From the NCBI GenBank assembly GCA_027307325.1, contig DAHUXE010000158.1:1-40436 (forward strand): DNA of 40,436 bases, written 5' to 3'. This document shows, piece after piece, positions 7,129-17,036 of this stretch (positions are counted from its first letter, which is position 1; every line of letters starts with the position of its first letter). Position numbers and translations under genes: made by a program. The stretch comes from Gammaproteobacteria bacterium (lineage in GTDB: Bacteria > Pseudomonadota > Gammaproteobacteria > Steroidobacterales > Steroidobacteraceae). The notes under the pieces are model-generated. The model did not search any database and was not told where the DNA came from. It saw nothing but the letters and a program-made list of their open reading frames with translations.

Positions 7129-7146
7129 GGCGCCCCGGTCAAACAG

Positions 7147-7680
7147 CTAATTTGCGTAAGTCGTCGTGGCCTGCGTGAAGTAGAAACGCAAGGATTCCTG
7201 GAGTGCAGTTGGGCCAGGGGAAAGAGATTTCGAAACGAGAATGGCCTGGACAAAGCTCGTCGTCGCGTACGCCATTCCCGCCTTGTACTCCGTTAGTGTC
7301 ATCGAGGTGAGTGGAGTCTGCGGGGGAATGACGGGCGCGGGCGAGCCGTTGCCCACACTGACGGTCATGTCGATGTAATTCCCTGTCGCGCCTGGCCGCC
7401 CCACCGCAGTCTGGGTCCCGGCTTGCGTAATCGACCAGGAGCTCGGGGCGAACGACGTCGCAGCGGTCGGCGGGTTCTGGCCCGGCACCGGATACGAGAT
7501 CGCGACCATGTATGGCACCGTTACGACGGCGGTCGGTCTCAGCGCGGGCGCAGTGATCGGCGGCTTGAGAGTGGGAGGAGCCGTAGCGACCTGCGCGTGC
7601 GCAGATGCCCCGAGCGCGATACATGCCGCGACCCATGCGCTGCGAAACGCATTGCGACGACCGACGATTCTGATGCTCAT
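7147..7680 (-). CDS. Hypothetical exported protein (177 aa)
   Basis: Signal peptide (SAWVAACIALGASAHAQ), beta-rich, ends ...LQESLRFYFTQATTTYAN; last gene of the minus-strand WD40/caspase cluster. Confidence 0.7.
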   Translation of the reverse strand: MSIRIVGRRNAFRSAWVAACIALGASAHAQVATAPPTLKPPITAPALRPTAVVTVPYMVAISYPVPGQNPPTAATSFAPSSWSITQAGTQTAVGRPGATGNYIDMTVSVGNGSPAPVIPPQTPLTSMTLTEYKAGMAYATTSFVQAILVSKSLSPGPTALQESLRFYFTQATTTYAN

Positions 7681-7721
7681 TCGGCTCTCCCCAAAGTGGC
7701 CGGAGCGGGCAACTCCTCTCC

Positions 7722-8909
7722 CTAACGATGGTGAATCCCGATGGTCGTCTCGCGTGGCGTCAGGCGCCCGGTGGCGAGCTCCTGGCTGTTGACCGGATCG
7801 AGTGCGAAACCTGTGCTGCCATCCATTGTAGTCTTCACGATGTTGCGTGTCCCAACACCTGCCGCCGGCAGTGCGGCGGTTGGACAGGAGCCGAGTGTCA
7901 GATCGGACCCGGACCCGGGAGCGCTATCCGTCGCTTTGACGATGTTGCGCGTTGCAGCAACGAGCTCGGGTGAGGAGCACGGTTCCAACACCAGGCGCAG
8001 CGCCTCGTCGCCCGCCGGGTCGGTGAGCTGGTAAGGACCGAGCTTGGCCAGCTGCGCGCCCGCCAGCGTGAGCGTCTCGATCGGGATCACCTCTCCCGTG
8101 GGGCTGACGTTGAACACGTGCACCCTTCCCGGCAGGGAGGGGCGGTAGTACACCAGGAAGCGCTCGCCCGAATGAAACACGTAGGAGCCCGGGTCGACCG
8201 TCGTCTCGGTCCCGCCCGCTGCAAGCACGTGCACTTCGAACGCGATCCCGGCATAGAGCGTCGGGGCCGGCGCGGGCGGTAACGGCGAACTCATCGATGT
8301 TGGCGCAGCGACCGGCGGCGCGTTGCCCAACTCCGGGGCTGGCATGATCGGGGCCGCTGCCGCCGTCATCGGAGCACCGGTCATCGGTGTGCCCGTCGTC
8401 GGAAATGGGGCCGCTGGCATCCCGGGAGGGCCTGGGTTCGTGGGCGGCAGCGAACCTGGGAGCGGCGTGCCCGGGGGCATCGCTCCGGGCACTGGCTGCG
8501 GATAGCCCATCGGCTGCTGAGGCAGCGTGCCCGGATAGGCCATGGCGCCCATCATGGGGGGCGGCACGGCCCACTGCGTGCCTGGCTGAGCGCCGGTGCC
8601 GCTGCGGTTGAACCAGTTGACGATGCCCTGGCTCAAGCTGCCCACCAGGCTGACGCCGACGTTCTTCGCAACCATCGCCAGAGCGCTGGCGAACAGGAAC
8701 CGCGGCGAGGTGCCGGCGGGGTTGTTCGGGTCGAAGGCCGTTGGCTGCGCCGGCAGCTGTTGGGTCGGCAGCGGCAGGACGCTTGCTGGCCCGACCGGAA
8801 GCTGCGGCGCCTGAGGCGCGGATGGCAAGCCCTGCGCGAGGGCTTCGAAGGACAACGCCCAGGTCAACAGCCAGAGCCATCGATGGCTGCGAATCGTCTG
8901 AGGCTTCAT
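7722..8909 (-). CDS. Exported Pro-rich protein with a DUF4384-like domain
   Basis: Signal peptide (WLWLLTWALSFEALAQ), long Pro/Gly/Met/Ala linker, then EVHVLAAGGTETTVDPGSYVFHSGERFLVYYRPSLPGRVHVFNVSPTGEVIPI (DUF4384-like), two TRNIVK motifs in the C-terminal tail. Confidence 0.75.
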   Translation of the reverse strand: MKPQTIRSHRWLWLLTWALSFEALAQGLPSAPQAPQLPVGPASVLPLPTQQLPAQPTAFDPNNPAGTSPRFLFASALAMVAKNVGVSLVGSLSQGIVNWFNRSGTGAQPGTQWAVPPPMMGAMAYPGTLPQQPMGYPQPVPGAMPPGTPLPGSLPPTNPGPPGMPAAPFPTTGTPMTGAPMTAAAAPIMPAPELGNAPPVAAPTSMSSPLPPAPAPTLYAGIAFEVHVLAAGGTETTVDPGSYVFHSGERFLVYYRPSLPGRVHVFNVSPTGEVIPIETLTLAGAQLAKLGPYQLTDPAGDEALRLVLEPCSSPELVAATRNIVKATDSAPGSGSDLTLGSCPTAALPAAGVGTRNIVKTTMDGSTGFALDPVNSQELATGRLTPRETTIGIHHR

Positions 8910-8964
8910 GTTGGGTTCCCTGCGCCGGGTGCTTTCGACGCGATACGCGGGCGTAGCGACGGCG

Positions 8965-9549
8965 CTAGAGGAGGCGGCTGATTGACTCGCATTGGAAATT
9001 CAGCTGCTCGTCGAGTTGACGCTGGGCATCGAAGATGGCGCTCACCGACTTCACCCGCGAGTTCCCATAGGCGATGACTCCTATGCCTTGGCCGCTGGGA
9101 CCGTAAATGGTGACCTTAAGCGTGAAGGGCCATCCGTTATTCATCAGGGCCTTGAGATCGTTTGAGGCGGCATCCGGACGCCGCACGATCGATACAGAAC
9201 ACGGCTTCGGGGGCGCGGGGAGGCGTTTGGAGGGCGTGGGTGCGCTCGCGACCACATCGGCAGCCTGTTGCGGCCCCGTGATGCTGAGGGCGGGAAACGC
9301 GCCGCTGCTCGGCAGGCTCCAGTTCGCGCCATTCGAGTTCACACCCTGCATCGAAAAGCTATACCGAGTCGGAGCCGGGGCGGCGGGAGTGGTCGCCAGA
9401 AGCGGAGTCGGTGGTGTGACCGGTTGTACGGTCACGGGTGCCGCCGGTTGTACGGTCGCAGGTGCCGTCACCGTCTGCGAGCGCGCGCTGAGGATCAGGC
9501 AGGAGATGGCCGCGATTGCCGTGCAAGCGCGGAGAACTTTTTTCTTCAT
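8965..9549 (-). CDS. Hypothetical exported protein (194 aa)
   Basis: MKKKVLRACTAIAAISCLILSARSQ signal peptide, TVQP-rich region, C-terminal globular part; ATG at 9549, 49 bp after the caspase gene. Confidence 0.7.
   Translation of the reverse strand: MKKKVLRACTAIAAISCLILSARSQTVTAPATVQPAAPVTVQPVTPPTPLLATTPAAPAPTRYSFSMQGVNSNGANWSLPSSGAFPALSITGPQQAADVVASAPTPSKRLPAPPKPCSVSIVRRPDAASNDLKALMNNGWPFTLKVTIYGPSGQGIGVIAYGNSRVKSVSAIFDAQRQLDEQLNFQCESISRLL
9420..9467. repeat. Two tandem 24-bp units (ccggttgtacggtcRcRggtgccg) inside the exported protein gene
   Basis: Units 9420-9443 and 9444-9467 differ at 2 positions; encode the TVQP-type repeats. Confidence 0.8.
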
Positions 9550-9598
9550 CGGTCCTCCCCTCGGGACGTTGTATATGTCAATACGGCCGTGCCGGGAA

Positions 9599-12500
9599 TC
9601 AGTATACGTCGAAGTCGAAATCCAGATTCTCGCGGCGCACGGTCGGATTCTGCGCACCGCGCGTCAGCTGCCGTACCTGGTCGATCACGTAGGACTGGAG
9701 CTCCGACACCGTGACGGAGGCATCGCCGTCCCGGTCGGCCCGCCCCGCGGTGAGCCCCTGGAGGAGCGCGTAGGTAAAGACGCCGTTGCCCCACTGGGCC
9801 CCCTCCAGGCTGAACTCGCTGCCGCTCGAGCTCGAGATCACTACTGCACCGGTGCCGCGGCGCAAGTCGGCGAACAGGTCCTGTTGCACCGTGAGGGCGG
9901 CGAGCGGCTCGGAGGCGGCGGTGGGCGCTGCAGAGGCGGCAGCGAGCGATACGATGTTGCGAGCCGCCTTGTATTCGCGCACGGTCACGCGCGTACCGCC
10001 CTCGGCCGGCGCGAGCGTGTGCACCTCTTCCTTGTCGATCTCGCCCGAGAAACAAGTGTCGACCAGCAGCACCTTGCGCAGCGGCTCGATTCCGTCGAGC
10101 AGATCCTCGAAGTCCTCGAACGGCAGGCCCGCCGCGCCCGGGTGGTCGGCGTCGATGTCCCAGGTGCCGTAGAAATAGTTCTGTCCGTCGTCGACGATCC
10201 CGTGGCCGGCGGCGAACACCACCGCCAGGTCCTGGCGGTGCGCCTGTTGCAGCCACTGTTTCGCCGCACGGATGCCCGCGCTGGTCGCCTCCTGATCGGT
10301 GATCACCCGCACGTGCACCGTACGCTGTATTCCCGCGCGCCCCTCGAGCGCGCGGAAAGCCTGTGCCAGGTCCGCAGCATCCTTGGCGGCAAAGCGCAGC
10401 GCGTAGCGCGGATTGCGGTAGGTGCTCACGCCGATCGCGACGACCCATACGTCCCAGGGCTCGCGGCTTGCGGTGGAGGTCGTGTAGAGGGTGCGACGCA
10501 ACGACTCCGCACCCTGGACATTGAGGGCCGACACCTGGATCTTGTTGTGGCCCGCGACCAGTGGCACTTCGAGCTCGCGTTCCGCCGCCTGCGCGGCGGG
10601 CGCGAGACTGAGTCCCGCCGTGCCGTACACCGGCACGTCGTTGACGTAGAGATTGATGCGATCGAGCGCCACGGCGGCGTCGGTCGCGCGCACGCGGATC
10701 TTCACGCTGGTGGCGGGCGTGCTGACCGGCAGGGCATCGCCGACGACCTCGACGGCGGGCAGATGCAGCTCCGTGCCGAGCGCGCCGGTAGCGAAGCCGG
10801 ATTTCCTCACGCGCTTCTCGTACGCGCGCTCGTACGCGGCAATCAGCGCGGGCGGCGCGAGTCCGAGCCGCTGCATCACCACGTCCGGCCGGTTGAAGCG
10901 CAGATCGAACTGCTCGAACGGGAAGAGCTGCTCGCCGACGCGGAAGGCAACGCCGTGCAGCTGATGGCGCGAGACGCGGTAGTAGCGGTCGGGCGTGACG
11001 CTGACGAAGTCCTCGCGTCCCACCGCGTAGAGCGCCGCCGCCTCGCGGCCGTCGGTGAGCGACCAGACTCGCACGGCGCCGTCGCGACCGCTGCTCACCA
11101 GCCGCCGGCCGTCGGCCGAGAACGCCAGGGCGGTCACGCCGCTCGTGTGGCCCGCGAGGTCGGCGAGCTGACTACCGGTCGCGAGGTCGACGAGTCGGAT
11201 CGCATTGCCGTAGGCGCGCGCTGCGACGCGCCCGTCGGGACTCAGGGCGGCGGCCGGAGAGGCCGCCATCTCCATCTGCCCGAGCATCGCCATCGGATCC
11301 TGAGCTGAGGCCGGGGCACGGGTGCGGGGAGCGCCCGCAAGGCGGATCTCCTTGCCGCTCTGCAGGTCCCACAGTCGCTGGCCGTAGCTGCCCGAGGCGA
11401 GCAGCACGCGGCCGTCGCGGCTGAAGGCGAGGCCCGTGGCGCCGTTGCGCTGCGGGTTGAAGGCCTGAAACACACCGCTGAGATCGAACCCCGACGCCCC
11501 GCCCATCATGGCCGCGAAGGCGGCGGGATTGGCCGATGCTCCGCCGCCCCCGGGCATCGCAGGCGCCGGTGGCGCGAGGCGTCCCAGCAGACGTCTGGAG
11601 GTGAGATCCCAGACACTGAGCTCCGTGGCACGCCCGACGGCCGCGAGCCCGCCGTCGGCGCGCACCGCGAGCGCCTGCACGCGATCGGGCGAACTCATCG
11701 CGGCGAGCTCGCTGGTGGCGGACGGCCCCGCCGCGAGGCCCGGCGGGAATCCGCTGCGTGCACCGGCCGAGCCGAAACCCGGCACGGCCGGGGGCGGAGG
11801 CGCGGGCGGGAGTGTGAGGCGCTGGACCGCCTGACCGGAGGCCACATCCCACACCGCGAGCTCGTCCTCGACGACGGTTACGAGCCGCCGTCCTTCGCCG
11901 TCGAAGCGCACGAGCGCATTCAGAAATGCGTTGGTCGCGACGTGCTTTGGATCCGTCGGCCGCAGCAGTCGGCTCGCGTAGGGCGGTGCGAGCTCGGTGA
12001 GTGCCACCGAGCCGTCGGCACAGCCGAGCGCCACGAGCGGTTGCGTGGGACTTGCCGCGACCGAGCGCGCGCTCGCCGAGTCGTGGCAGGGGAGCGAGGC
12101 GAGGAGCTGTCCGGTCGCCAGGTCCCACACTCTCGCGCCGCCCGGACCGCTCGCCGTCACGGCGGCCGCGCCGCCGGCAATCAGCGCGAGGTCGATCACT
12201 TCGGACGCGCCCGCAGCGATCGGCGTCTCGCGCCCGCTCGCGATGTCGTAGGTCACCGGCGCTCCGCCTTCGGGCTTGCCGAGGACCAGCTGCTGTCCGT
12301 CCGCGGAAAAACCCAGGGCGGACGCGGCGGGGCTGGCGAGGAGCGCGTAGTCCGGAAGGCGCCACAGCCGCGCCACGCCATCGAGCGAGGCAAAGGCAAG
12401 CGCCGCTCCGCTCGGGCTGAAGGCGAGCGTCGACTTCGCCGACGGATGCGCCGCAGCGCCCGTGGCGAGGGTCGTGACGAGCGCGCCATTCGTCACCTCG

Positions 12501-13366
12501 TAGACCTGCAGATTTCCGTCGCCTACTTCGACTGCCAGCAGGCGGCCGTCGGGGCTGAGCGCCATGGACAGGGCGACGTCGCTGCGTTGTTGCACCTCGA
12601 GCCGGGTCCGCAGGCGCCGTCCGGCGAGGTCCCACAGCTGCACGGCATAGCGACCCGGTTGGCTATCGCGCGCCTTAGGCCGCGCCGCGTTGGCCGGCCG
12701 CACGGCGAGCAGCGTCCCGTCGTCGCTCAGCGCCAGCTGCTCGAGTGGCTCGCCGCCTCCCACGGACCACAGCACGCCGCCGCTCCCGGGGTCGATGAGC
12801 GCGATGCCGCCCGATGCCAGTTGTACGCTCGCGGCCCGACCGCTCGAAGTGACAAGCAGCGGTCTCATGCTGCCTCCCTCGAGGCGGGCACGCACGGCAC
12901 CCGAGGCCGTATCGAGCAGCTCGGTGGATTCTCCGTAGCCGATCAGGGCTCGTGCACCCCCGGAACTGAAGCCGAGCGCGAGCGCGGGAGCGGGGCTGGG
13001 GCTTGCGATGCTGCGCACCTCCTGGCCCGCAGCCGTGTCCCAGAGGCGGGTCGTGTCGTCGAAGCCGGCCGTGAGCACATAGCGTGCGTCGCCGCTGACC
13101 GCGACCGTCAGGATCGGCGCCGTGTGACCGGTCCCGACGACGACCCCGATGCCGCCCGGCACCGGACGCGGCTGCGGAGCGGGACTGCGCCCCATCATGC
13201 GCGAGATCGCCTCTTCGACCTGCTGCCGGTCGACTTGCGGCGGCGGTTGCTGCGCCGCGGCGCTGCCCATGAGGCTGAGGAAGAGCGCGCACAGCACGCC
13301 CACACGCCCCGTGCCGATCCCGACAGGCTGCGGCGAGAGCGGGATGCGCCGGGTACGGCCAGGCAT
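9599..13366 (-). CDS. Exported multi-blade WD40 repeat protein with C-terminal caspase-like (peptidase C14) domain
   Basis: Signal peptide (MPGRTRRIPLSPQPVGIGTGRVGVLCALFLSLMGSAAAQ); WD40 blades (TGHTAPILTVAVSGDARYVLTAGFDDTTRLWDTAAG ... AGHTSGVTALAFSADGRRLVSSGRDGAVRVWSLTDG); caspase-like dyad motifs VVFAAGHGI (His) and VLLVDTCFSGEID (Cys). ATG at 13366 preferred over the 1291-aa ORF. Confidence 0.9.
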   Translation of the reverse strand: MPGRTRRIPLSPQPVGIGTGRVGVLCALFLSLMGSAAAQQPPPQVDRQQVEEAISRMMGRSPAPQPRPVPGGIGVVVGTGHTAPILTVAVSGDARYVLTAGFDDTTRLWDTAAGQEVRSIASPSPAPALALGFSSGGARALIGYGESTELLDTASGAVRARLEGGSMRPLLVTSSGRAASVQLASGGIALIDPGSGGVLWSVGGGEPLEQLALSDDGTLLAVRPANAARPKARDSQPGRYAVQLWDLAGRRLRTRLEVQQRSDVALSMALSPDGRLLAVEVGDGNLQVYEVTNGALVTTLATGAAAHPSAKSTLAFSPSGAALAFASLDGVARLWRLPDYALLASPAASALGFSADGQQLVLGKPEGGAPVTYDIASGRETPIAAGASEVIDLALIAGGAAAVTASGPGGARVWDLATGQLLASLPCHDSASARSVAASPTQPLVALGCADGSVALTELAPPYASRLLRPTDPKHVATNAFLNALVRFDGEGRRLVTVVEDELAVWDVASGQAVQRLTLPPAPPPPAVPGFGSAGARSGFPPGLAAGPSATSELAAMSSPDRVQALAVRADGGLAAVGRATELSVWDLTSRRLLGRLAPPAPAMPGGGGASANPAAFAAMMGGASGFDLSGVFQAFNPQRNGATGLAFSRDGRVLLASGSYGQRLWDLQSGKEIRLAGAPRTRAPASAQDPMAMLGQMEMAASPAAALSPDGRVAARAYGNAIRLVDLATGSQLADLAGHTSGVTALAFSADGRRLVSSGRDGAVRVWSLTDGREAAALYAVGREDFVSVTPDRYYRVSRHQLHGVAFRVGEQLFPFEQFDLRFNRPDVVMQRLGLAPPALIAAYERAYEKRVRKSGFATGALGTELHLPAVEVVGDALPVSTPATSVKIRVRATDAAVALDRINLYVNDVPVYGTAGLSLAPAAQAAERELEVPLVAGHNKIQVSALNVQGAESLRRTLYTTSTASREPWDVWVVAIGVSTYRNPRYALRFAAKDAADLAQAFRALEGRAGIQRTVHVRVITDQEATSAGIRAAKQWLQQAHRQDLAVVFAAGHGIVDDGQNYFYGTWDIDADHPGAAGLPFEDFEDLLDGIEPLRKVLLVDTCFSGEIDKEEVHTLAPAEGGTRVTVREYKAARNIVSLAAASAAPTAASEPLAALTVQQDLFADLRRGTGAVVISSSSGSEFSLEGAQWGNGVFTYALLQGLTAGRADRDGDASVTVSELQSYVIDQVRQLTRGAQNPTVRRENLDFDFDVY

Positions 13367-13500
13367 GAGGGTCCGCCGTTGTTGTTTATCCGGTCGGTAT
13401 TCGCCTGCACCGACCGCTTGGCGCCGGGCGCAGGAGGCGAGCGGATTGTAGGCCCGGCGGAAACGGGCCCGCAACGCCGCCCGCAGCGGCGGCTGCGGGG

Positions 13501-14670
13501 CTAGCCGAAGTTGATCTTCGCCTCGAGGTTGGCGCGCGAGTCGGCGTTGGTGAGCGCCTCCTCGAGCGGCACGCGGCCGGCGCGGTAGAGGTTGAAGAGC
13601 GCCAGATCGAAGCTCTGGATGCCGCGCTCGCCGCTCGCGCTGATCGCCTCCTTGATCGCCACCACGTCGCCCTTCTTGACCAGCGTCTGGATGTGCGGGG
13701 TGTTGATCATCACCTCGAGCGCGGCGAGGCGCTTGCTATCCATGCCGATGATGAGGCGCTGCGCCATGATGGCGCGCAGGTACTGCGACAGGTCGAGGAA
13801 GATCTGGTTGTGCTGCTCGCGCGGGAACATGTTGATGATGCGGTCGAGCGACTCGGCGCAGTTGTTGGCGTGCATGGTGGCGAGCACCAGGTGGCCGGTG
13901 CCGGCGAGATTGATGGCCGCCTCCATGCTCTCGCGGTCGCGGATCTCGCCGATCAGGATCACGTCGGGAGCCGCGCGCACCACGCCGCGCAGCGCGCGCG
14001 CGTACGACTTGGTGTCGAGCCCCACCTCGCGCTGATTGACGATGGAGCGCTTGTTGGTGTGCAGGAACTCGATCGGGTCCTCGATGGTGACGATGTGGTC
14101 GGAGGAGCTCTCGTTGCGGTGGTTGATCATCGCCGCGAGCGTGGTCGACTTGCCGGAGCCGGTGGCGCCCACCATGAGGACGAGCCCGCGTTTCAGCAGC
14201 ACCAGGTCGGCGCACACCTCGGGGAGTCCCAGCGCATCGAGCCGCGGCATGTCGGCGGTGATGTAGCGCATGACCATCGCCGGGTAGCCGCGCTGCAGGA
14301 AGACGTTGACGCGGAAGCGCCCGAGGCCGGGCTCGGACACCGCGAAGTCGAGCTCGAACTCCTGCGTGAAGTGCTCGCGCTGCTCGGCCGACATGAGGGC
14401 GAAGGCCGTCTGCCTCACGGTCTCGGGAGTCAGCACCTGGCGGTTGACGGGCAGGATCTGCCCCTCGATCTTGATCTTGATGGGTGCGTTGGGGGTGAAG
14501 AACAGATCGGAGGCCTTCTTCTCCACCATCAGCTTGAAGAGCGGCTTGGTGTTGAGCGTCGCGTGCCCGGGGCTCGCCGTGACCGCCGCCAGGGCGTCGG
14601 CGCCCGTGAGGGCCGCCTGCGTCCCCGTGGTGGTCTCGAGCGGCTGGGCCTTCGCTTCCTTGGCCGCCAT
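13501..14670 (-). CDS. PilT/PilU-family twitching motility ATPase (first of three)
   Basis: Walker A GATGSGKST, IGEIRDRESMEAAINLAGTGHLVLATMHAN, Asp/His box motifs; ATGA overlap with the next pil gene. Confidence 0.93.
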   Translation of the reverse strand: MAAKEAKAQPLETTTGTQAALTGADALAAVTASPGHATLNTKPLFKLMVEKKASDLFFTPNAPIKIKIEGQILPVNRQVLTPETVRQTAFALMSAEQREHFTQEFELDFAVSEPGLGRFRVNVFLQRGYPAMVMRYITADMPRLDALGLPEVCADLVLLKRGLVLMVGATGSGKSTTLAAMINHRNESSSDHIVTIEDPIEFLHTNKRSIVNQREVGLDTKSYARALRGVVRAAPDVILIGEIRDRESMEAAINLAGTGHLVLATMHANNCAESLDRIINMFPREQHNQIFLDLSQYLRAIMAQRLIIGMDSKRLAALEVMINTPHIQTLVKKGDVVAIKEAISASGERGIQSFDLALFNLYRAGRVPLEEALTNADSRANLEAKINFG

Positions 14671-15824
14671 CAGATGCTACGCCCTTGATCTTCCTCGACG
14701 ACCTGCAGCGCCGCGCCGTCCTCGACGGTCTTCACTTCGCGCTTGCCCTCGAGCTTGATGCGCAGCCGCAGCTCGTTCTTCGAATCGGCGTTGCGCAGCG
14801 CGTCCTCGTAGGAGATGAAGCCGGTCTCGTACAGCTCGAACAGCGCCTGATCGAAGGTCTTCATGCCGAGCCTGGTGGAGCGCGACATCACATCCTTGAT
14901 CTTGGCGACTTCGCCCTTGAAGATCAGGTCCTGGATCAGCGGCGAGTTCAGCATGATCTCCATCGCCGCGATGCGCCCGACCCCGGCTTCGCGCGGCACC
15001 AGCCGCTGCGACACCATGGCGCGGATATTGAGCGACAGGTCCATGAGCAGCTGATCGCGCCGCTCGTCCGGGAAGAAGTTGACGATGCGGTCGAGCGCCT
15101 GGTTGGCGCTGTTGGCGTGCAGCGTGGCGAGCACCAGGTGGCCGGTCTCGGAGAACTGGATGCCGTACTCCATGGTCTCGCGGTCGCGGATCTCGCCGAT
15201 CAGGATCACGTCCGGGGCCTGGCGCAGGGTGTTCTTGAGCGCGTTGTGCCACGACTCGGTGTCGACACCCACCTCGCGGTGCGTGATGACGCAGCCCTTG
15301 TGGGTGTGGACGTACTCGACCGGGTCCTCGATGGTGACGATGTGGCCGCGGGTCTTCTCGTTGCGATAGCCGACCATGGTCGCGAGCGTGGTGGACTTGC
15401 CCGAGCCGGTGCCGCCCACGACGATGACCAGCCCGCGCTTGGAGAGCACGACCTCCTTCAGGATCGGCGGCAGGTCGAGCTCCTCGAAGCTCGGGATCTT
15501 GGCGTTGATCAGGCGGATGACGCAGCCGACGGCCGCCTGCTGCACGAAGGCGCTGACGCGGAAGCGGCCGATGCCGGGCGGCGCGATCGCGAAGTTGCAC
15601 TCCTTGGTGGCGTCGAATTCCTTGGTCTGGCGGTCGTTCATGATGGCGCGCACCAGGATGGCCGACTGCTCGGCGGTGAGCGCGCGCTCGGACTGCGGGC
15701 GGATCTCGCCGTCGAGCTTGATCGCCGGCGGGAAACCCGCGGTGATGAAGAGGTCCGATGCCTTCTTCTCGGTGACCCGCCGCAGCAGGTCCTGCATCAG
15801 CTTGATGGCCTGATCACGATCCAT
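14670..15824 (-). CDS. pilU: PilU-like twitching motility ATPase (second of three)
   Basis: GGTGSGKSTTLATMVGYRNEKTRGHIVTIEDPVEYVH...GEIRDRETMEYGIQFSETGHLVLATLHANSANQALDRIVNFF. Confidence 0.88.
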   Translation of the reverse strand: MDRDQAIKLMQDLLRRVTEKKASDLFITAGFPPAIKLDGEIRPQSERALTAEQSAILVRAIMNDRQTKEFDATKECNFAIAPPGIGRFRVSAFVQQAAVGCVIRLINAKIPSFEELDLPPILKEVVLSKRGLVIVVGGTGSGKSTTLATMVGYRNEKTRGHIVTIEDPVEYVHTHKGCVITHREVGVDTESWHNALKNTLRQAPDVILIGEIRDRETMEYGIQFSETGHLVLATLHANSANQALDRIVNFFPDERRDQLLMDLSLNIRAMVSQRLVPREAGVGRIAAMEIMLNSPLIQDLIFKGEVAKIKDVMSRSTRLGMKTFDQALFELYETGFISYEDALRNADSKNELRLRIKLEGKREVKTVEDGAALQVVEEDQGRSI

Positions 15825-15893
15825 TGATGTCTACCTGCCGGTGCCTCGGGTCTTCAAGTCTGCGCAGCATGCTCGGGGTTCGCCGCGCAGCGC

Positions 15894-16934
15894 CTAGAGA
15901 GCGTCCTTGTTCTGCGCCTTGTAGCGCGCCTCTTCCTTGCTCACCTGTCCCTTGGCCACGAGATCGGTGAGGCACTGGTCGAGGGTCTGCATGCCCTGGG
16001 CGCCGCCGGTCTGGATGGACGAGTACATCTGCGCGATCTTGCCCTCGCGGATGAGGTTCCGGATCGCCGGCGTGCCGATCATGATCTCGTGGGCCGCGAT
16101 CCGGCCGCCGCCGTTCTTCTTCAGCAGCGTCTGCGAGATGACCGCGCGCAGCGACTCCGACAGCATCGAGCGCACCATCTCCTTCTCCTCGCCGGGAAAA
16201 ACGTCGACGATGCGGTCGATGGTCTTGGCGGCGGAGCTGGTATGCAGCGTCCCGAACACCAGGTGGCCGGTCTCGGCCGCGGTGAGCGCCAGGCGGATGG
16301 TCTCGAGGTCGCGCATTTCGCCGACCAGGATGACGTCCGGGTCCTCGCGCAGCGCCGAGCGCAACGCCTCGCTGAAGCCGAGCGTGTCGCGGTGCACCTC
16401 GCGCTGGTTGACCAGGCAGCGCTTGGACTCGTGCACGAACTCGATCGGGTCCTCGACGGTGATGATGTGGTCGGGCCGGTTGTCGTTGCAGTGATTGACC
16501 ATGCCGGCGAGCGTGGTCGATTTACCCGAGCCCGTCGGGCCGGTGACCAGCACCAGTCCGCGCGGCAGCATGCACAGGTCGCGGAAGATCTTCGGCGCGC
16601 TCAGGTCGTCCAGCGAGAGGATGACCGAGGGAATGTTGCGGAACACCGCGCCCGCGCCGCGGTTCTGGTTGAAGGCGTTGACGCGGAAGCGCGCCAGCTT
16701 TGGAATCTCGAAGGAGAAGTCGGTCTCGAAGAATTCCTCGTAGGCCTTGCGCTGCTTGTCGTTCATGATGTCGTACACCATGGAGTGCACTTCCTTGTGC
16801 GACAGCGGCGGCATGTTGATGCGCTTCATGTCGCCGTCGACGCGGATCATCGGCGGCACACCCGAGGACAGATGCAGGTCCGAGGCATTGTTCTTGACGG
16901 CGAACGCCAGGAGTTGCGCGATGTCGACGGCCAT
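15894..16934 (-). CDS. pilT: PilT twitching motility ATPase (third of three)
   Basis: MAVDIAQLLAFAVKNNASDLHLSSGVPPMIRVDGDMKRI...GPTGSGKSTTLAGMVNH...GEMRDLETIRLALTAAETGHLVFGTLHTSSAAKTIDRIVDVFP; ATG at 16934. Confidence 0.94.
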   Translation of the reverse strand: MAVDIAQLLAFAVKNNASDLHLSSGVPPMIRVDGDMKRINMPPLSHKEVHSMVYDIMNDKQRKAYEEFFETDFSFEIPKLARFRVNAFNQNRGAGAVFRNIPSVILSLDDLSAPKIFRDLCMLPRGLVLVTGPTGSGKSTTLAGMVNHCNDNRPDHIITVEDPIEFVHESKRCLVNQREVHRDTLGFSEALRSALREDPDVILVGEMRDLETIRLALTAAETGHLVFGTLHTSSAAKTIDRIVDVFPGEEKEMVRSMLSESLRAVISQTLLKKNGGGRIAAHEIMIGTPAIRNLIREGKIAQMYSSIQTGGAQGMQTLDQCLTDLVAKGQVSKEEARYKAQNKDAL

Positions 16935-17036
16935 TGAAGCTCCCTGGGGACCCACGCCTCCGGTGCGATGAAAACAGGCGAAATGCTCTTGAGCGCCGGA
17001 GCCGCGGCAGTATAGCGGAGGGGTTACACGTCCAAT

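Follow-up and report, generated by a model that had tools for sequence, protein, structure and literature searches.

What does a caspase homologue act upon when it and the products of the genes beside it carry export signals? This question is raised by four adjacent genes in a 40,436-nucleotide stretch (hereafter, the window) of a Gammaproteobacteria genome of the family Steroidobacteraceae (contig DAHUXE010000158.1, assembly GCA_027307325.1). The original prediction, made from the sequence alone, proposed that these genes form a conserved and possibly undescribed extracytoplasmic system. Our analysis supports a real, apparently exported and horizontally acquired caspase homologue with a credible co-encoded substrate, rather than a conserved four-gene system. 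Our preferred reading, to which we assign a probability of roughly 0.6, is that the protease of this cluster is an exported, Arg-specific caspase homologue and acts on itself as well as on co-exported substrates (Table 1).

A C14B-like protease with WD40 repeats

The product of gene 1 begins with a signal region (residues ~1–38), followed by WD40 repeats (~79–780), a linking beta domain, and a caspase domain (974–1252). Searches against Pfam recovered WD40 (E 4.8e-31) and Peptidase_C14 (E 2e-13, residues 974–1252), in line with the prediction of a signal-bearing WD40 protein with a caspase-like domain. The score of 51 bits against PF00656 (gathering score 21.4) places the protein in Peptidase C14 of caspase clan CD. 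Across an alignment of 25 homologues (alignment A2), the catalytic dyad of His1055 and Cys1105 is invariant (columns H276 and C326), as are the acidic residues Asp996, Asp1103 (column D324) and Glu1188, which together indicate an acidic S1 pocket of the C14B type. By our own residue mapping, these three acids correspond to Asp365, Asp462 and Glu500 of MALT1, which have been assigned to the recognition of Arg at P1 (PMC4357240).

An AlphaFold2 model of residues 780–1255 had a mean predicted local distance difference test score (pLDDT) of 77; most core residues scored around 90 or higher, and the linker stayed below 50. Ranking structural matches to this model with Foldseek placed Arg-specific MALT1 first (3v4o), followed by metacaspases and GSU0716. 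A basic P1 specificity is stated as a rule for orthocaspases (PMC6426788). Since the dyad is intact, the three S1-pocket acids are invariant, and the best fold matches are MALT1 and metacaspases, gene 1 is predicted to cleave after Arg. Sequence and model together thus point to a genuine WD40–Peptidase_C14 protein that is C14B-like, of the paracaspase, metacaspase and orthocaspase kind. Gene 1 scored below the curated cut-off of NCBIfam NF047832, the EACC1-associated caspase (87.4 vs 140 bits), and had no strong match among the PADLOC defence-system profiles (a partial match to the caspase profile, E 2.2e-5).

The products of all four genes are apparently exported: a hydropathy reading, which is a crude rule, found that each N-terminus starts with basic residues, continues with a hydrophobic run and ends in an AxA-like sequence. 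The signal peptides that had been claimed for the three small proteins are therefore matched by signal-like N-termini.

An Arg site shared by the protease linker and gene 3

The activation linker between the p20- and p10-like halves of gene 1 contains two candidate sites, after R1130 and R1136 (a slash marks the putative scissile bond throughout). No linker residue other than R1130 (column R351 of A2) is conserved in 90% or more of the 25 homologues, and AAR1136/N stands in the part of the linker with pLDDT below 50, that is, disordered in the model. The second of these sites recurs twice in gene 3, as TR321/NIVK and TR355/NIVK. The DNA pattern for [AGST]RNIV occurs eight times on both strands of the genome bearing the cluster (2.98 Mb; one occurrence for the reversed-pattern control), and three of the eight fall in this cluster, one in the linker of gene 1 and two in gene 3. 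Only one of the other five was found in an open reading frame (ORF), that of a non-exported protein.

The linker is enriched in such sites across the family as well. Among 33 family proteins, the density of [AST]R[GNA]phi sites was 0.0097 in the linker vs 0.0006 elsewhere (~16-fold), and 15 of the 33 had a linker site. Paralogues in a deltaproteobacterial metagenome-assembled genome, whose full loci were fetched only after the motif had been named, have the linker sites SR/GIVKK, TR/GIKAK and TR/GMRSK. As a separate observation, this genome (G761, loci L193–L198) encodes nine WD40-C14 paralogues, several with an [ST]R/G linker site, and no exported partner set was seen in it.

Because gene 3 carries twice the Arg site of the activation loop, it is probably the dedicated target, and hence a substrate, of the protease. 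Its product consists of a signal, a hydrophobic helical hairpin (~69–102), a Pro/Ala-rich stretch, a beta-rich domain (~227–306) and a disordered tail; the Pro/Ala-rich linker noted in the original prediction is evident in residues 27–215, which are 24% Pro, 15% Ala and 11% Gly. A single-sequence AlphaFold2 model reached a pLDDT of 39, a confidence too low to use.

We infer that these sites are cleaved, by this enzyme and outside the cytoplasm. In the mechanism we propose, the WD40 propeller would probably recognise partners or a trigger, and so dock or trigger the protease. Once activated, the protease would cut its own disordered linker after Arg, at AAR/NIV and/or at the more widely conserved VTVR/, and would cut gene 3 at the two copies of the same site (TR/NIVK). 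If Cys311 and Cys342 are joined by a disulphide, cleavage after R321 would open the segment that separates them. The cut at R355 would take the 40-residue C-terminal tail off the protein. Envelope protein maturation and signal release are candidate roles for the resulting products.

Related proteases in Nitrospirota

Across 85,488 species genomes, the homologues closest to gene 1 were in Nitrospirota, at 53–58% identity, and a tree of 25 homologues grouped gene 1 with nine Nitrospirota sequences with support 100/100. These exported WD40-C14 proteins (in genomes G756–G759, G910, G914, G916 and G1096) share with gene 1 the full-length architecture, 54–58% identity over the C-terminal 476 residues, an MMG-type motif after the signal, the linker Arg site (here FKAAR/G[VI][TS]) and exported neighbours. 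They differ in having a lipobox-like signal and, around them, several exported proteins in which [ST]R/[GA] sites are found.

Among 35 exported ORFs near the protease of G910, 5 have the pattern [VIL][EGAD][ST]R[GA] shortly downstream of the signal peptide; none of 171 exported ORFs elsewhere in this genome does (720 kb sampled; Fisher P 1e-4). Around the Nitrospirota protease, three exported families unrelated in sequence have an [ST]R/[GA] site at a domain junction; several of their loci were fetched after the motif had been defined. In the TIG-associated family the site is found in 13 of 14 listed members, in the “AVHF” family in nearly all members (in some as PR/G, SR/S or PR/N), and in a 278-residue family in all members. 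Of 342 Nitrospirota genomes, six encode the TIG-associated family, namely all five with a WD40-C14 ortholog, plus G847, which encodes a 515-residue exported C14 protein without WD40 repeats (L199:14579–16126) at the position of its relatives' WD40-C14 gene.

A second exported Nitrospirota protease, C14-DUF4384, is accompanied by genes for an extracytoplasmic function (ECF) sigma factor and a zf-HC2 anti-sigma-like protein, and faces a DUF4384 lipoprotein in several genomes (protease loci include L096:16188–18473, L200:3827–6106 and L208:13257–15512). Both the protease and the facing lipoprotein often have TR/G[IV] sites next to the DUF4384 domain. In some genomes this module adjoins the WD40-C14 gene, where the cluster described here has three small orphans instead; no ECF sigma or anti-sigma genes lie beside it.

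The DUF4384 lipoprotein also offers a lead on gene 3. Both share a like order of signal, hydrophobic helix, Pro/Gly-rich (in gene 3, Pro/Ala-rich) stretch, beta domain and tail, and both tails follow the pattern ...GVG..TR/[GN]I[VI]K... (for example, GSVQTR/GIVKVQ in G916). The homology is not significant (hhalign against the Nitrospirota DUF4384 alignment, P=0.012, probability 3.5%), and we regard this kinship as a lead rather than as membership. The DUF4384-like domain that the original prediction had assigned to one of the small proteins was not confirmed: gene 3 had no match to Pfam PF14326 at E<=1, and its HMMER signal was not above that of shuffled sequences, which leaves this label for the beta-rich domain unproven.

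What recurs, then, is a protease together with exported proteins bearing its kind of site, and in Nitrospirota, where several exported proteins with putative [ST]R/[GA] processing sites surround the orthologous protease, this arrangement takes a richer form. A broader reading, which we hold only tentatively and at somewhat less than even odds, is that of an undescribed exported processing system, in which an Arg-specific WD40-caspase homologue would mature unrelated co-exported proteins through a short common site beside a domain boundary, matching the site in its own linker. This site would be [VI][EG][ST]R/[GA] in Nitrospirota and [AT]R/NIV in the present genome.

Origin and genomic setting of the cluster

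The four ORFs are colinear on the minus strand with gaps of 49, 55 and 41 bp, as had been described. Upstream on the same strand lie three PilT/PilU-type ATPase genes in tandem (13501–16955), and downstream, in convergent orientation, pyrK and pyrB (names read from translations). In at least three genomes of the same genus (G006, G026 and G011), the third pilT-like gene and pyrK adjoin directly, with a spacing of 88, 31 and 68 bp, respectively, and the cluster is therefore an insertion. No direct repeats of at least 8 bp were found at its ends, and a consensus scan of the cluster borders revealed neither a promoter nor a terminator. The third pilT-like gene itself (13501–14670) is an additional, conserved copy, which in genus-mates lies next to pyrK. 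The junction between the two is occupied by different genes in different genus-mates (loci L148, L149, L152 and L158) and may thus be an insertion hot spot.

Table 1 Features of the cluster and of its insertion in the window
Feature	Position	Strand	Basis
Gene 1, apparently exported WD40-Peptidase_C14 protease, 1255 aa	9599–13366	minus	Translation, Pfam
Gene 2, apparently exported 194-aa protein without family	8965–9549	minus	ORF, profile searches
Gene 3, apparently exported 395-aa protein	7722–8909	minus	ORF, low-confidence single-sequence AlphaFold2 model
Gene 4, apparently exported 177-aa protein without family	7147–7680	minus	ORF, profile searches
Catalytic dyad of gene 1, His1055 (AGHG) and Cys1105 (VDTCFSGE), with S1 acid Asp1103 at C-2	10050–10204	minus	Alignment of homologues
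Putative activation-linker sites of gene 1, VTVR1130/EYKAAR1136/NIVSL, between p20- and p10-like halves	9942–9981	minus	Alignment, model, motif density
Candidate cleavage site 1 of gene 3, VAATR321/NIVKATD, between Cys311 and Cys342	7939–7952	minus	Genome motif search, in-frame check
Candidate cleavage site 2 of gene 3, GVGTR355/NIVKTTM	7837–7850	minus	Genome motif search, in-frame check
6.4-kb insertion	7129–13500		From pyrK stop codon to stop of convergent pilT-like gene

Among 100 relatives searched, no close homologue of gene 1 was found in genus-mates (the best match, E 1.9e-16, is a different WD40-C14 protein), and a search of the phylum found two full-length homologues at 34–37% identity. 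With no close homologue of gene 1 in the genus-mates searched and its nearest relatives in Nitrospirota, the simplest reading is that the cluster was acquired horizontally as a module. Its G+C content (0.693) resembles that of the flanks (0.711 and 0.685), suggesting that the transfer is old or came from a G+C-rich source. The full-length protease had no match among the viral contigs scanned, and plasmid records matched gene 1 at the WD40 level only.

Three further observations concern the wider family. A WD40-C14 protein on a contig binned as Thermoplasmatota (L051) falls among Bacteroidota sequences, probably reflecting mis-binning or transfer. A 96-residue ORF (L090:11888–12178) resembles the p10-like end of the caspase next to it, fused to a signal-like start, and is possibly a duplication remnant. 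Beside a distant WD40-C14 homologue, L044:276–3470 encodes a C14 protein that has a signal and a DUF900 hydrolase domain and weakly matches DUF4384.

The small genes were not found outside this locus in the searches made. Genes 2 and 4, predicted to lack a recognised family, indeed had no above-threshold match in Pfam, NCBIfam, PADLOC or PHROGs, and the same holds for gene 3. No relatives of genes 3 and 4 were found in 60 genomes of relatives, and a wider search covering 274 genomes of the class gave none for gene 3; 72,556 plasmid records contained no relatives of genes 2–4 (of the small genes, only 3 and 4 were used to search whole genomes). Two gene 3 matches in class-mates (E 0.004–0.009) were due to chance, lying inside heparinase genes. 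Nor were relatives of genes 2–4 found beside the WD40-C14 homologues that we fetched. Within the genomes and plasmid records searched, the small proteins thus did not co-occur with WD40-C14 genes, and the four-gene set proposed as a system is not conserved. Genes 2 and 4 may be inhibitors, receptors or passengers; four-letter words common to gene 4 and the gene 1 linker (such as “EYKA”) were too short and were not used.

Weighing the alternatives

Several points weigh against self-processing and co-exported substrates. Genes 2 and 4 lack the Arg site, and no partner set was seen with the Bacteroidota homologues, which do have an Arg in their linker. Permutation of the Arg-containing 4-mers common to the linker and gene 3 gave P=0.003 when two are counted and 0.045 for one; since the two copies in gene 3 may stem from a single duplication, the count lies between one and two events. 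The motifs were noticed before testing, which makes most p-values post hoc, and the Nitrospirota genomes are mutually related, so that their co-occurrence counts are not independent. The site rule also has exceptions, as the tail site of the Nitrospirota DUF4384 lipoprotein is found in 8 of 15 genomes and is missing in G910, which has the protease.

The strongest alternative is that the exported caspase homologue acts on other envelope or external proteins, that the RNIV match is coincidental, and that an insertion hot spot has brought in the three small proteins as unrelated passengers. It draws on the permutation value for one common 4-mer, on the other genes held by the pilT/pyrK junction in some genus-mates, and on genes 2–4 having no relatives or proven domains in the searches made. 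We nevertheless consider it unlikely, given that three of eight genome-wide motifs lie within 6.2 kb, that an independent pattern exists in Nitrospirota, and that the genes are tightly spaced on one strand, with a Shine-Dalgarno-like GGGGAGGA at 9553–9560, ahead of gene 2.

Appreciably less probable is a self-contained unit of regulated cell death or envelope defence, in which cleavage of gene 3 would free its hydrophobic hairpin against the cell's own membrane, loosely like a gasdermin, from outside the cytoplasm. The hairpin, predicted in a low-confidence model, the pairing of a protease with a partner and the patchy horizontal distribution would fit such a unit. However, the sites of gene 3 lie C-terminal to the beta domain rather than between this domain and the hairpin, defence caspases are matched by weak domain similarity only (the PADLOC match above), and all parts appear exported.

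Finally, a cytoplasmic caspase system with N-terminal helices misread as signals is very improbable, for although the signals were called by hydropathy and the start of gene 3 is moderate (1.46), the N-termini of all four gene products look like signals with an AxA-like end, and lipobox-like ends (LLGGC and LPSGC, for example) are seen in Nitrospirota orthologs of gene 1. An exported assembly, as opposed to a cytoplasmic abortive-infection caspase, was part of the original prediction, and the sites common to the linker and gene 3 further back a protease acting on exported partners.

Comparison with known systems

An exported, self-processing caspase homologue with co-exported substrates would resemble several characterised proteins in part. 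The orthocaspase MaOC1 of Microcystis (C14B), which self-cleaves after Arg219 (PMC7475262), shares with gene 1 the His-Cys dyad, an acidic S1 pocket and, by prediction, a basic P1. Unlike MaOC1-type orthocaspases, gene 1 has N-terminal WD40 repeats and a C-terminal protease, and the accessible parts of the sources do not describe those enzymes as exported with co-encoded substrates. The MALT1 paracaspase, the top structural match (3v4o) with its three acidic S1 residues, is otherwise a eukaryotic signalling scaffold with 17% identity to gene 1; its activation is possible without cleavage of its L4 loop (PMC4357240). Closer in composition are the WD40-metacaspases surveyed by Asplund-Samuelsson et al. 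in 2012 (PMC3501461), which combine C14 and WD40. The available text of this survey reports N-terminal helices that are possibly signal peptides, gives metacaspase-NACHT-WD40 as the widely distributed form, and contains no dedicated exported substrates; it lists 70 of 217 metacaspase operons as having no assigned function. In the open-licence literature, we found no study of the exported Nitrospirota WD40-C14 proteins and no description of an exported protease-substrate set of this kind.

Most natural substrates of bacterial caspase homologues have yet to be identified. Here a candidate enzyme, the exact bonds and candidate substrates are all legible in one genome, which reduces the question to a simple cleavage assay. 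The cluster points to roles of caspase homologues beyond cell death and outside the cytoplasm and, if the broader processing system proves true, bacteria would be using the caspase fold there in a convertase-like way.

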